A stretch of 64,000 bases of DNA from an uncultured Opitutia bacterium (GTDB lineage: Bacteria; Verrucomicrobiota; Verrucomicrobiia; Opitutales; Opitutaceae). Shown here one piece after another: positions 15,544 through 57,639 of this stretch. The notes under the pieces were generated by a model. The model ran no database searches, had not been told where the DNA came from, and was given only the letters and a program-made list of their open reading frames with translations. Location: positions 1-64,000 of the forward strand of contig CAIKHO010000079.1 in assembly GCA_903827245.1 (NCBI GenBank), read 5' to 3'. Each line of letters starts with the position of its first letter. Position 1 is the stretch's first letter. Made by a program: the position numbers and the translations under genes.

Positions 15544-15650
15544 TTGCAGGAGCCTGCCGGCACGCGATTTTCCGTAGCGGAACGGCTTCCCGTTCCGCGG
15601 CGGAGCCGGAAGCGGCTCCGCTACGAATCGCCTGCCAGCAGGCTCCTACA
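15544..15650. repeat. 105-bp composite palindromic element, copy 1
   Basis: Outer arms of about 24 bp (GCAGGAGCCTGC... and ...GCAGGCTCCTACA) enclose two inner hairpins, one starting GTAGCGGAACGG and one ending CGGCTCCGCTAC. The same architecture and largely the same sequence recur at 56322-56426. It lies in the gap downstream of the DUF1501 gene. Confidence 0.85.
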
Positions 15651-39720: not shown

Positions 39721-39985
39721 AGCCGGGCAGTCGAGAGTCGAGAGCTCTGCCAGCAAGCCCCGGCCAACCCGAAGCGCACAGTCGCTTAGCCGGAACGATT
39801 CAATTGAACCGCAGCGATTGATGTAGCAGCCGAGGTAACGAGGCTGGGTTTGGCGACTCACCTCAAACCAGCCTCCTCACGTCGGCTGCTACGAGCGACT
39901 GCATGGTTACGGCTTAGGCCCGCTGTTTTCCAGCTCTCGACTCTCCGCTCTGGACTCTCGACTGGCTGCTCTGGACTGCCCGCGG
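39721..39985. repeat. Nested inverted repeats filling a convergent gap, including 70-bp element copy 1
   Basis: Outer arms pair GGGGGAGCCGGGCAGTCGAG with a segment ending GGACTGCCCGCGGCCCCC. Inside lies the GTAGCAGCCGAGGTAACGAG...GTCGGCTGCTAC hairpin at 39823-39892. The 70-bp element recurs at 45015-45084 (inverted) and 51794-51863. Conserved flanking sequence (TTGAACCGCAGCGAT...) extends it at the left. Confidence 0.8.
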
Positions 39986-41027: not shown

Positions 41028-41095
41028 GGCAGGAGCCTGCTTGCAGGCGATTTTACCTCGGTCCACGCTGCTCGTCGCCTGCAAGCAGGCCTACA
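41028..41095. repeat. REP-like inverted repeat (GGAGCCTGC-TTGCAGGCGA type)
   Basis: GGAGCCTGCTTGCAGGCGAT and ...TCGCCTGCAAGCAGGCCTACA form a paired head-to-head unit in the gap downstream of the small membrane protein. Each half is itself a hairpin. Confidence 0.85.
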
Positions 41096-41206
41096 ATGGA
41101 ATGAACGGCCTCGACCGGCCCGTTTTCCGTGGCTGGCGCAGTGCGTAGAACTACACCGTCACGCGCGTAGTTGTACCGATGAAAATCCCCGGGGGCATTT
41201 GGTACG

Positions 41207-42172: not shown

Positions 42173-42244
42173 TGTAGGAGCGGCTTTATGCCGCGACGAT
42201 TGGGCCTGCCGGGTGACTCATCGCGGCATATAGCCGCTCCTACA
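42173..42244. repeat. GTAGGAGCGGC REP-like hairpin pair
   Basis: TGTAGGAGCGGCT...GCCGCGA and TCGCGGC...AGCCGCTCCTACA pair end to end over 72 bp. The GTAG...CTAC tips and GGAGC core are like Pseudomonas/Xanthomonas REP sequences. Lies in the gap (42139-42366) after the EF-hand gene. Confidence 0.88.
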
Positions 42245-44933: not shown

Positions 44934-45014
44934 CGGACGGGAAAGTCCGGCCGGAATGAAACCACCGCGACCTCACGGCATGAGTCCGGCTGCGCCGGGT
45001 CCATACAGTTGAAC

Positions 45015-45084
45015 GTAGCGGCCGACGTGAGGAGCCTGGTTTGAGGTGAGTCACCAAACCCAGCCTCGTTACCTTGGCTGCTAC
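45015..45084. repeat. 70-bp GTAG...CTAC element, copy 2 (inverted relative to copy 1)
   Basis: Near-identical to the reverse complement of 39823-39892, with only a few mismatches in 70 bp. Flanked by CAGTTGAAC/GTTCAACTG arms. Fills the gap between the convergent VOC and SlyX genes (44934-45149). Confidence 0.88.
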
Positions 45085-45149
45085 ACCGATCACTGCGGTT
45101 CAACTGCATCGCTCCGGCTGGGACAAGCTCGGGTGTATCTCGGCCAGCC

Positions 45150-45945: not shown

Positions 45946-46056
45946 GGTGTGCTAACGTGAAGCGCGTTTCCCCTCGCGCGCAACTGGGAACGCACGACCT
46001 CCCCTTTGACCCGGCCGACCCGCAACCCCGGCCGCGCCGCCTCCGGTTTGGGTAGC

Positions 46057-46146
46057 GGTACGTTTTGATGGCTTCCAGTTTGCAGTCCCGGCTTCAGCCG
46101 GTCCGGAATTCCGGCTGAAGCCGGGACTACAAACACAAAACGTACC
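46057..46146. repeat. CAGTCCCGGCTTCAG palindrome, extended copy 2
   Basis: The outer pair GGTACGTTTTG/CAAAACGTACC encloses GCAGTCCCGGCTTCAGCCGG and CCGGCTGAAGCCGGGACT. It shares its arm with 26802-26831. Located in the gap between the zinc-ribbon regulator and the DUF255 gene. Confidence 0.8.
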
Positions 46147-46175
46147 ACTACGCCGGGTTGCCCCCGGGCGGCACC

Positions 46176-48440
<2,265 letters not shown>

Positions 48441-48447
48441 CAGTAAT

Positions 48448-48537
48448 AAGGGGTAAGAGCGTAAGGTTTAAGCTGTAAGCAAGCGGACGGGCGCTGAACC
48501 GCAACCACCGGCCTAAAACTTACGCTCTTAACCCTTA
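48448..48537. repeat. Inverted repeat AAGGGGTAAGAGCGTAAG / CTTACGCTCTTAACCCTT
   Basis: Near-perfect arms of about 20 bp across a 90-bp gap between the deoxyhypusine-synthase-like gene and the DUF255 gene. They are AT-richer than the surroundings. Confidence 0.75.
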
Positions 48538-48548
48538 AAACTTGCCCC

Positions 48549-51793: not shown

Positions 51794-51863
51794 GTAGTGG
51801 CCGAGGTAACGAGGCCGGGTTGGTTGAATCGCCTCCATCCAGCCTCCTTACGTCGGCTGCTAC
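51794..51863. repeat. 70-bp GTAG...CTAC element, copy 3
   Basis: GTAGTGGCCGAGGTAACGAG...TACGTCGGCTGCTAC follows copy 1 (39823) in sequence and orientation. Conserved flank with CCGGAGCG...CCGCGATCAAT precedes it. It lies just after the ABC-F gene in the 353-bp gap before deoA. Confidence 0.85.
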
Positions 51864-51950
51864 GCCTGCCGGATGGATCCGGATGGGTCATGCCAACCTC
51901 CGCTGGATTTTGCACTTTCGCCTTCTGGCCAATGCATGCGAGTAGACACA

Positions 51951-52040
51951 GGTGGCCGCCGACCTCCGGGCGGCGGATTCCGAGTGTCGGATTCCAAGTG
52001 GCCGCTGTGCCACACCGCCGCCCGGAGGTCGGCGGCCACC
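51951..52040. repeat. Palindrome with 26-bp perfect arms
   Basis: Arms at 51951-51976 (GGTGGCCGCCGACCTCCGGG...) and 52015-52040 (exact reverse complement) enclose 38 bp that contain a GATTCC direct repeat. It lies in the convergent gap between the ABC-F and deoA genes. Confidence 0.9.
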
Positions 52041-52085
52041 TTGGGCGACAATAAGTCCAAAACCAACGGGACGTTGGTATCAGTC

Positions 52086-54705: not shown

Positions 54706-56082
54706 CTATTCCTTCCGGGCGCCGAAGACGGCGCGGGCCATTTCCATGGGTGCACGGGTGAAATTCCTGATGCCCGCCGGGGCAGCGGCGGGGGGCGGCG
54801 GCGGGGGCAGCTCGCTCAGCGTCTTCTCCCGCATCGAAAGCTGGATCTCGCGGTCGCGCACCTGTTCCTCCCGGCGCTTCACCGCCCGGTGGTGCTCCTG
54901 CATCGCGAGGCGGTCGTCCTTGAAGTTCGCCCGCTCCGCCTCGAGCAGCTCAGTCGCGCGCTGGAGCTTCGCCCACGCCTCGCGCAGTGCGGCATCGTCG
55001 GTGAACGGCGAGGGGGAGGACGGACGCGTGCTCGCGCTGAACCAAAGCACCCGGTCGGCCTCGAGCTGGGCCTGGATCTTCCGCAACCGCTCCTCGTAGG
55101 CGCGAAGGTTTTCCTCCTGCGAACGGAACAAGTCGAGGTCCTCGTGCCAGCGGCGGCGCTCCTGGGCGAAGCGCGTCGATTCCTCGCGGAACCGCGCCGT
55201 CTCTTCCGCGAGGCGGTCCTCTTCCGCCGCCAGGCGCTCGCGCCAGGCGATGATCTCGGCGTGCCCGGCAGCAGGCTCCGGCGCCATCACCGCCGCAGGC
55301 GTGGATTTCTCGCGATTCTGGCGCTCATGCTCCAGTTGCGAGCGCTCGCTCGCGATCGCGGCCCGGGTCTCGGACAGGGCCCGCGCCTTTTCGTCAATCG
55401 CGGCCTGCGTGGCCGCGGCCAGCTCGCGCTCCGTGCGGAGCTCGGCGAGTTCCGCCTGCAGGCGGCCGGCATCGGCGTTCTGCCCGAGCAGCGTCTTGAG
55501 CTCGGCCTCCAACGCGTCCTTTTCATGCTGCAGCCGCTCGACGCGCGCCTCGAGCACGGCCTTGTCCTTGGACACGCGCAACAGGTCGGCCCCGGGCTCG
55601 CGGGTATGCACACCGAGCGGATGGGCGCTCCGGCCGGCCCCGGAAAGATTTTCCAGCATGGACTCGACCTGCGCCAGGTCCTCCGGCGTGACGCTCTCCG
55701 GTTCGCCGAGGGATTCCAGCCGCAGCAGCGTCCGGACCCGCCGCAGCATGACCCGCGGCTCCTCCTGGGCGGCGAGCACATCGGCCACGCCGAGGCGGAT
55801 GCCCTGGACCACGAGCGGGAGCTCAAGCCGCGAAACCAGCAGCAGCACGGGCACGGTCGGCTGGATTTTCTTGAGCATGTCGACAAACACAAAGCCGGGC
55901 GCGCCGGAGAGCTCGTGATCGATGACGGCGAGGTCGTACCATTCGCCACGCGCATTGTCCGCGGCCGATTCCGCAGTGGCGAAGGCCCGCACGTCGAAAC
56001 CGGCGTCGGCGAACAACAGCACAAGATGGCGGCGCACCCGGGCGTCACCATGCACAACGAGGATTTTTTTGACGAGGTTCAT
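54706..56082 (-). CDS. Receiver-domain protein with long coiled coil
   Basis: 458 residues. A receiver-like domain (1-120: KKILVVHGDARVRRHLVLLF; Asp in LAVIDHELSGAPG; hydrophobic VLLLVSRLEL) lacks the usual acidic pair after the first strand (HGD instead of DDD) and the Lys of the KP motif is not evident. It may thus be a pseudo-receiver. Residues about 160-430 are a charged coiled coil rich in Glu/Arg/Ala, followed by a Pro/Ala end (SELPPPPPPAAAPAG). No output enzyme is present. A scaffold role in cell organisation is possible. It ends about 420 bp before the structured leader. Confidence 0.8.
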   Translation of the reverse strand: MNLVKKILVVHGDARVRRHLVLLFADAGFDVRAFATAESAADNARGEWYDLAVIDHELSGAPGFVFVDMLKKIQPTVPVLLLVSRLELPLVVQGIRLGVADVLAAQEEPRVMLRRVRTLLRLESLGEPESVTPEDLAQVESMLENLSGAGRSAHPLGVHTREPGADLLRVSKDKAVLEARVERLQHEKDALEAELKTLLGQNADAGRLQAELAELRTERELAAATQAAIDEKARALSETRAAIASERSQLEHERQNREKSTPAAVMAPEPAAGHAEIIAWRERLAAEEDRLAEETARFREESTRFAQERRRWHEDLDLFRSQEENLRAYEERLRKIQAQLEADRVLWFSASTRPSSPSPFTDDAALREAWAKLQRATELLEAERANFKDDRLAMQEHHRAVKRREEQVRDREIQLSMREKTLSELPPPPPPAAAPAGIRNFTRAPMEMARAVFGARKE

Positions 56083-56321
56083 GGGAATTTGGATCGCAGG
56101 ACTCTTGACTGTTTTTGACTGCGCTCAGTGTAGACCGCGCGGTGCTTCCTCCGCCATAGCCCGGGCCGGCTTTTACCGGGTGTTTACCAGCGCGGCCCCG
56201 GTTTCGGAAAATTTTTACCCCGTTTCCGGGAAGGGGCTCACCCCAGGCGATAAAGGGGACAGGATCATGCCGTTGATTCTTCCCTGCGCGGGTCAGAGAG
56301 GGAAATTGTTCGATCACTCCA

Positions 56322-56426
56322 TGCAGGAGCCAGCTGGCAGGCGATGAGCGTAGCGGAAGGCTTCCCGTTCCGCGGTGGAGCCCGGAAGCGGCTCCGTTAC
56401 GAATCGCCTGCCAGCTGGCTCCTGCA
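56322..56426. repeat. 105-bp composite palindromic element, copy 2
   Basis: Outer arms TGCAGGAGCCAGCTGGCAGG... and its reverse complement pair perfectly over about 24 bp. Inner hairpins GTAGCGGAAGGCTTCCCGTT and GGAGCCCGGAAGCGGCTCC match copy 1 at 15544-15650. Lies in the 360-bp gap 56083-56442, beside the NatB-like gene's stop. Confidence 0.9.
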
Positions 56427-56442
56427 ATTTATTGACTCCGGC

Positions 56443-57639
56443 TCAGGAGCGGAAAAGCACGTCCTCGCGATTGAACATCCGCACCGCCAGCGCGAGCGCG
56501 ACGCCCGCATAGGCGCAGGTGGATCCGAAAATCAGCGCGATGTAATTCCAATGCCAGACGCCCGAGAGCATTTCCTTGCAGACGAGCGAGAGATTCAGGA
56601 TCGGAACCAGCGCGAGCCGGCTGTTGAGCTCGATCCCCGGGAGCAGCCCGACGGCCACGGGCAGGAGGACGACAAAGGCGAGCGGCGTGAGGTAGGTCTG
56701 CGCCTCCTTGCTGCTTTTCGCGCAGAGCGCGATCGTCAGGAGCAGCGCGGAGAACAGCACCGCCACCGGCAGGACCATCGCCAGCACTCCCGCCAGGCCG
56801 AGCGGATCGAGCGGCGGCAGCGCCCCCCGCACGGTGGCGCCGATGCCTGCGCCCGCGAGCGCCATGGTCAGCGCCATGGAAAGGAGCGAAAGCCCGATCG
56901 CGCACAGCGAGCTGGTGAGGACCGTGAAAAACTTGCCCAGCACGATGTCGACCCGCGCCACCGGGCTGCACAGCAGGGTTTCCATCGTCCCGCGCTCCTT
57001 CTCGCCCGCCGTGAGGTCGATCGCCGGATAAACCGCCCCGGTGAAGCACAGCATGATGATGAGATAAGGCACGAGGCCGCCGATGGCGTTGCCCCCGACC
57101 TTCTCGGGCGGCGCGACATTTTCCCGCTGCACCGCGAATGGCGTCACGAGCGACGCCGGCAGGCCGTGCGCGGCCAGCGAGGCGGTGACGGCCTTTTCCC
57201 GCACGTCGCGGAAAAACGCCTCGATCTCGCCCACCGCGAAGCCCGATTTCAACTCTCCCTGGTAGTGCAGGATCACCACCGGCCGGGCGGCGCCGGCCCC
57301 CAGCCCGGCGTCGAATCCCGGCGGGATCTGCACCGCCGCGCGGATTTTCTTGTCGGAGATGAGCTGCCGGTAGCCGGCGGCCTCGGACACAATCCTGAAG
57401 CGGGGCGACTGCCGCAGCGCCGCGACCGTCCGCGGCGAATCCGCGCCGCCGAGCAGCATCACGACGGGAATTTCCTCGCGGGCGCTGGCGTAGGCGCGGG
57501 AGCCGATGCGGCTGACCGCGTACACCAGGACGGGCACAACGAGCAGCGGAATGATGATCATCGACAGCAGCGTCCGCCGGTCGCGCAGCGAGTCCCTCAG
57601 CTCCTTGCCATAAACGGTGGCGATGTTTTTTCCGTTCAT
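56443..57639 (-). CDS. ABC-2 type exporter permease (NatB-like)
   Basis: 398 residues from ATG 57639 (ATGA overlap with the ATPase). An N-terminal helix (LLSMIIIPLLVVPVLVYAV) and a roughly 150-residue extracytoplasmic domain precede five or six membrane helices. Features are AGEKERGTMETLLCSPVARVDIVLGKF, LLTIALCAKSSKEAQTYLTPL and LVPILNLSLVCKEML, as in sodium-extruding NatB and related ABC-2 exporters. The substrate may be Na+ or another small molecule. It works with the ATPase encoded immediately upstream. Confidence 0.88.
   Translation of the reverse strand: MNGKNIATVYGKELRDSLRDRRTLLSMIIIPLLVVPVLVYAVSRIGSRAYASAREEIPVVMLLGGADSPRTVAALRQSPRFRIVSEAAGYRQLISDKKIRAAVQIPPGFDAGLGAGAARPVVILHYQGELKSGFAVGEIEAFFRDVREKAVTASLAAHGLPASLVTPFAVQRENVAPPEKVGGNAIGGLVPYLIIMLCFTGAVYPAIDLTAGEKERGTMETLLCSPVARVDIVLGKFFTVLTSSLCAIGLSLLSMALTMALAGAGIGATVRGALPPLDPLGLAGVLAMVLPVAVLFSALLLTIALCAKSSKEAQTYLTPLAFVVLLPVAVGLLPGIELNSRLALVPILNLSLVCKEMLSGVWHWNYIALIFGSTCAYAGVALALAVRMFNREDVLFRS

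Follow-up and report, generated by a model that had tools for sequence, protein, structure and literature searches.

A nested REPIN, apparently spread as a unit, in the genome of an uncultured Opitutia bacterium

Introduction

REPINs are mostly treated as units with a passive spacer, and the REPIN study is reportedly the work of Bertels and Rainey. The insertion of REPINs into or beside other REPINs has already been noted in part of the literature (a section of PMC3116915). According to part of PMC3733652, O. terrae (Verrucomicrobia) is rich in GTAG REPs, one family of which forms head-head (HH) dimers with the units 1-2 bp apart, and in some species REP dimers lie within longer palindromes. 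Recognition by the TnpAREP of E. coli requires the GTAG head, as stated in part of PMC8266576.

Here we analyse a window of 64,000 nucleotides, the whole stretch of DNA that was read, from the genome of an uncultured Opitutia bacterium. The window, located on contig C79 of an assembly (G000) of 3.55 Mb in 91 contigs that is 97.4% complete, carries two copies of a composite in which one inverted pair of REPs encloses another. The element is non-coding and of a known mobile kind; what is new is that a nested composite has apparently spread as a unit. Searches of the openly licensed literature, and parts of three papers, gave no earlier account of a nested REPIN spreading in its turn.

Results

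The composite is situated at 15546-15649 (copy 1) and 56323-56425 (copy 2), and in both copies the reading of the window gives the order A-B-B'-A', an inverted pair of the 22-nt GTAG-headed palindrome A (GTAGGAGCCTGCTTGCAGGCGA and variants) placed around an inverted pair of a second palindrome, B. Copy 1 consists of the outer REP A (head GCAG; 15546-15567, + strand), the inner REP B (GTAGCGGAACGG...; 15574-15598, + strand), the inner REP B' (GTAGCGGAGCCG... on the - strand; 15600-15624) and the outer REP A' (head GTAG; 15628-15649, - strand), the inner pair being GTAGCGGAACGGCTTCCCGTTCCGC and GTAGCGGAGCCGCTTCCGGCTCCGC. The corresponding units of copy 2 are A (head GCAG; 56323-56344, +), B (56350-56373, +), B' (56375-56400, -) and A' (head GCAG; 56404-56425, -). 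The outer arms are 25 nt long and 88% complementary in copy 1, 24 nt long and 100% complementary in copy 2. The first-pass annotation had described one four-part palindrome with GGAGCC outer arms and a second copy in the window. The second copy and the four-part layout are real and the arms are present, however, it is a GCAG or GTAG head that precedes GAGCC (GCAG in place of GTAG in three of the four outer units of the window, and also in several copies of A), and the evidence favours two separate elements, one within the other, over a single palindrome.

Copies in the rest of the genome were gathered by DNA search, pattern searches and a covariance model (R2) built with a named structure on the six full-length composites; R2 replaced an earlier model (R1) that included truncated copies and took only 24 pairs. 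The first R2 scan scored 150 of 1651 candidates, hence weaker copies may be missed. The genome-wide search that had been suggested from the window indeed yielded further copies: the DNA and pattern searches and R2 together give eleven composite or composite-derived loci, six of them full-length (two on C79 and one each on C72, C78, C7 and C51, the last with a decayed A') and five truncated or decayed (C47, C86, C81, C45 and C65). A short junction pattern matches at least 114 loci; these matches were discarded as chance, no A arm adjoining in the 80 that were checked (L075-L154).

The outer pair also occurs by itself. In the same scan, R2 found A..A' pairs without B at 27 loci (E≤0.1), one of which (C33) has a different inner pair; the span of the 27 is 68 bp in 16 and 66-69 bp in 20. 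Two of the pairs without a B core, obtained by pattern and R2 search, lie in the window at 41029-41096 and, in a short form, at 46949-47008. Two simple A..A' pairs fold into single hairpins (z -8.2 and -9.6). A itself is an imperfect palindrome within the range of 20-40 nt with a GTAG-type head, dispersed in many copies above chance: at ≤1 mismatch it is matched 48 times in G000 and not once in the reversed control. A looser pattern (≤3 mismatches) gives 156 matches against 81, therefore isolated weak A matches carry little meaning. Of 120 family genomes, 45, G000 included, have A-type units at ≤1 mismatch, with a reversed control of 0 in all. Since A..A' consists of two GTAG-type REPs face to face with their heads outside, forms one hairpin and differs in presence between relatives (the copy 2 locus in G002, see below), we conclude with high confidence that it is an ordinary REPIN (BIME). 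In one A..A' pair (L247:826-934, on C89 of G000) the left A hairpin is broken near its loop by about 38 nt, which by eye resemble a stretch at L245.

B-B' is a separate REPIN, solitary in relatives. As a GTAG-headed inverted pair without A it is present once in G000 (C9:31734), and in two relatives (G022, on C44 and C85; G045, on C27); clear B-B' pairs are found in G000, G022, G045 and G057. B gives 19 matches in G000 at ≤2 mismatches against none in the reversed control, and 21 at ≤3 mismatches against 5. B-type units at ≤2 mismatches occur in 12 of the 120 genomes, G000 included, several of them partnerless and possibly due to chance. No B unit (≤5 mismatches) was found at 52 Y1/RAYT loci (20 + 32, with some overlap), and hence no cognate RAYT flanked by B among the loci examined.

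The way in which the two elements are joined bears on the origin of the composite. The right, B'/A' junction can be read in all composites but C65. In nine of these ten, C81 being the exception, the inner pair is connected to AATC of the outer unit, the orientation of the inner pair being identical in these nine, and none of four non-composite cores (C9, two in G022, one in G057) has the AATC junction. On the left, two kinds of junction are seen: five loci have GATGRGC, another five have GATT and 3-5 further bases, and C47 has a deletion there. The common right junction makes it most likely that the nested unit arose once and then spread. Given the two left-junction classes, a single origin is not the sole reading: we favour one founding insertion, with subsequent spread and later alteration of the left side, but two founding events are possible.

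An empty site is found in a same-genus genome (G002). The flanks of copy 2 (55181-56260 and 56442-57512) align to it at 78.9% and 82.6% identity, respectively, and the matching G002 stretches overlap by 19 bases, which implies that about 180 bp are missing at the orthologous site. The insert, approximately 56261-56441, comprises the composite and flanks similar to those of other copies (termed T); its ends are approximate, as the comparison of this site with G002 gave neither a clean target duplication nor exact insert ends. The copy 1 locus in G002 also has no composite, in a region that is more diverged and less cleanly aligned. The mobilisation that the first-pass annotation had offered as one of two explanations is thus supported, as far as sequence comparison goes, by the eleven composite-derived loci, the common junction and the insert absent from G002. 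We hold with good confidence that the nested composite, as it appears, spread as a unit.

The outer unit can be linked to a transposase in relatives. In G018, a RAYT gene (L058:1248-1766, - strand, 172 aa) has A units with 1-2 mismatches on both sides, one of which contains the stop codon of the gene within its GTAG. The protein scores 90.1 bits with NCBIfam NF047646 REP_Tyr_transpos (cut-off 80) and 24.6 bits with PF01797 (Pfam Y1), just above the cut-off of 23, and matches E. coli TnpAREP (4er8) at E 2.2e-5. When the eight top genomes are each represented by their best RAYT match (L209-L216, of which L209 is the G018 protein itself; a second G087 match, eighth by score, was left out), A or A-like units (≤4 mismatches) lie within 300 bp in 8/8 and on both sides in 7/8, and all four flanking A units of G127 (L211) are exact. 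HxH and a tyrosine, which we take to be the RAYT motifs, are kept in 8/8 and 7/8 of these proteins, respectively; L214 (G040) has a serine at the presumed catalytic tyrosine position. In the larger set of 20 RAYT-relative loci (L209-L228), nine (L209-L216 and L221) have A-like units within 300 bp, L219 has them about 740 bp away and ten have none. A-bearing genomes make up 20 of the 25 with a RAYT relative at E≤1e-35 and 25 of the 95 others (Fisher p 1.4e-6, and p 2.5e-7 to 0.035 over 12 threshold pairs, in a test that treats related genomes as independent, which they are not). Fifteen of the 31 genomes with at least five A units have no RAYT relative at E≤1e-35. Among 32 Y1 loci (L026-L037, L055-L074) A adjoins only the G018 locus, an A pair lying about 1.2 kb from L037, and in G012, which has 22 A units, no A was found beside any of the 11 Y1 loci examined. 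A cognate RAYT flanked by the same REP is found for A in some relatives, and our confidence in a RAYT mechanism in this lineage is moderate.

The RAYT link that had been proposed is supported for those relatives, however, no such gene was found in G000 itself. No match to the Y1 transposase profile and no relative of the G018 RAYT (E≤0.001) was detected in this 97.4% complete assembly; when relatives were searched with the Y1 profile, 28 of 38 genomes matched, with G000 counted as a miss. Both same-genus genomes have Y1 matches (L070-L072), and the stretches examined around these contain neither A nor B nor any other GTAG dimer. Consequently, we infer the mobiliser from the relatives, and the copies in G000 are probably relics of past activity, or else served by a RAYT gene that lies in the unassembled part. 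Since species with REPs and no REPtron are reported in part of PMC3733652, we do not take the missing RAYT as excluding a REPIN.

Nesting recurs elsewhere. By eye, C33 has A around an unrelated inner pair, and in the relative G057 (L197) B-B' lies inside another inverted pair. Within the window, the element at 46052-46151 (fold z -13.2) has outer GTAGCGGTACGTTTTG.. arms and, inside them, a pair of G(C/T)AGTCCCGGCTTCAGCCGG; this element and L003:1641-1750 have similar outer arms, GTAG(C/T)GGTAC.., and different inner pairs. At 44994-45118, T-like inverted arms enclose a GTAGCGGCCGACGTGAGGAG..GCTGCTAC dimer. Five nested pairs were counted in the window (A[B] twice, T[A], T[F] and 46052-46151), against a rough expectation of 0.57-1.42 from 14 dimers with a mean spacer of 40 bp and an assumed intergenic fraction of 20% to 8%. 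Two of the five are copies of one composite, which reduces the count to four (P(≥4) 0.003-0.056), and it is suggestive only that nesting is commoner than chance. A dimer search of the window gave 10 matches, two of which are one dimer read in shifted registers; 20 block shuffles gave 4 in total. A strict nested-dimer scan of 181,345 bases of partly overlapping own-genome loci returned 15546 and 46052 (= L048) of the window and L003:1641, and its sole match in the 309,501 bases under other genomes was L022, an own-genome locus; as only one full-length composite out of six was recovered, and both C33 and the G057 case were missed, the scan is uninformative on absence.

The window also contains other repeats. 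A different REPIN (GTAGGAGCGGCTTTATGCCGCGA) at 42174-42243 has many matches in the same-genus G002, and a perfect 27-nt inverted repeat lies at 51950-52041, its repeat having many matches in the other same-genus genome, G001. Three dimers, at 39823-39892, 45015-45084 and 51794-51863, belong to a further GTAG family (GTAGCAGCCGAGGTAACGAGG.. and variants), and a 32-nt inverted repeat at 48442-48542 is 84% complementary and, by eye, A+T-richer.

Discussion

The probable explanation, in our judgement, is a nested REPIN, enlarged by the insertion of B-B' and copied by a RAYT in trans. A single landing of a B-B' REPIN in the loop (spacer) of an A..A' pair would have given a longer hairpin, which was then copied to new sites, on this reading, by a RAYT that acts in trans and recognises the A ends, head and hairpin, in single-stranded DNA.

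The same loci could have been produced by B-B' REPINs that inserted repeatedly and independently into A..A' loops, hairpin loops being preferred single-stranded landing sites, with the composite never moving as a unit. The recurrence of nesting (C33; 46052-46151 and L003:1641-1750; 44994-45118; L197 of G057) and the two classes of left junction agree with this, however, separate events can hardly give one right junction at nine of ten loci together with one inner orientation, and copy 2, C72 and C65 are alike over 59-69 bp to the left of the element as well; we deem repeated insertion unlikely. Flanks common to some copies also mean that the mobile unit may exceed the REPIN. A larger repeat, T, does enclose part of the A family, and the mobile unit could be this MITE-like repeat with inverted ends, moved by another transposase with the REPIN as its cargo. 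At 40 A-containing loci the left flank resembles the T consensus in 12 and the right in 17, each above 198 of 200 shuffles, both counts being inflated because the consensus drew on part of these loci and the better orientation was taken; at L252, T flanks enclose, by eye, a mere remnant of A, and the whole of the approximately 180 bp is missing in G002. Against a T unit, 28 of the 40 loci have no left T flank and 23 no right one, copy 1 having neither, the T arms are 81% complementary where measured (44994-45118), and no transposase is tied to T. The ends of T are inverted and similar, with no clear target duplication. That T is the mobile unit seems to us improbable, and it is compatible with the nested REPIN as the explanation of the copies without T.

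Far less probable is that selection maintains the four-part palindrome as an RNA element, such as a hairpin between co-directional genes that stabilises the mRNA or acts as an attenuator. Both window copies do lie between - strand ORFs, which we take for genes on the basis of mechanical ORF lists, REPs have been proposed to play roles in transcripts (in part of PMC3733652), and predicted folding is strong: as single-stranded DNA, copy 1 folds at -50 kcal/mol (z -9.13) and copy 2 at -48.4 kcal/mol (z -10.42), with 0 of 200 shuffles equally stable in either case, each into a long A:A' stem leading to a junction with two B hairpins. The first-pass annotation had read compensatory changes in the arms as a sign of selection for a DNA or RNA structure. 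Double-sided changes do exist in the six full-length copies, where they affect two of 45 pairs (columns 10-96 and 14-92), but they do not exceed the shuffled controls (mean 1.7); 91.4% of the cells are paired against 90.6% in shuffles, a value matched by 63 of 500, and 24 of 500 shuffles attain the covariation score. The composite structure beats its slid versions, which is expected of any structure derived from these same sequences. All this is weak evidence of selection on structure, and the pairing of the arms is sufficiently explained by inverted copies that share a recent origin. An Rfam search of the window gave a tRNA as the sole match and nothing at the composites, which consequently have neither an Rfam match nor covariation above controls to place them in a structured RNA family; moreover, the element is absent at orthologous sites and several of its copies are decayed. 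With pair counts no better than shuffles and no Rfam family at the composite, the claim of selection is not supported and we dropped the RNA-structure reading.

The nested pair at about eleven loci suggests that repeats of this kind build larger mobile units from each other, and the remains at these loci that a spacer can take a cargo of about 50 bp and still move; the requirements of a RAYT at the ends, and its tolerance for what lies between them, thereby become directly testable. Nesting with several partner pairs would indicate where REPINs land. We tentatively suggest, as a possibility somewhat short of an even chance, that REPIN loops are preferred landing sites of REPINs, and that composites of two or three layers recur in this lineage, keep the ends recognised by the transposase and move as larger units. 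If so, REPINs would grow by capture, like composite transposons.

Several known systems resemble the composite in part. IS elements found in REPs (part of PMC1525189) likewise have REPs as insertion targets, although the insert here is a REPIN and not an IS. The BIMEs of E. coli (part of PMC8266576) are also inverted REP pairs, and E. coli TnpAREP (PDB 4er8) is matched by the RAYT of the relative G018; those pairs are often arranged in tandem, whereas the composite is concentric, and the E. coli enzyme is said in that part of the source to tolerate no change in GTAG, whereas three of four outer heads in the window are GCAG. The GTAG-tagged HH dimers of PMC3733652 have, in the part of that paper on which we draw, GTAG heads outside and spacers of 1-100 bp, as here, and the O. 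terrae dimers 1-2 bp apart are, by description, like B-B'; the enclosing palindromes of that paper, unlike the outer pair A..A', are not termed REP dimers in the same part. REPINs, as described in part of PMC3116915, share with A..A' two inverted REPs in one hairpin, dispersal and a link to RAYTs; the present nested form differs from them in that it is fixed in its architecture, has eleven derived loci and has apparently spread as a unit.
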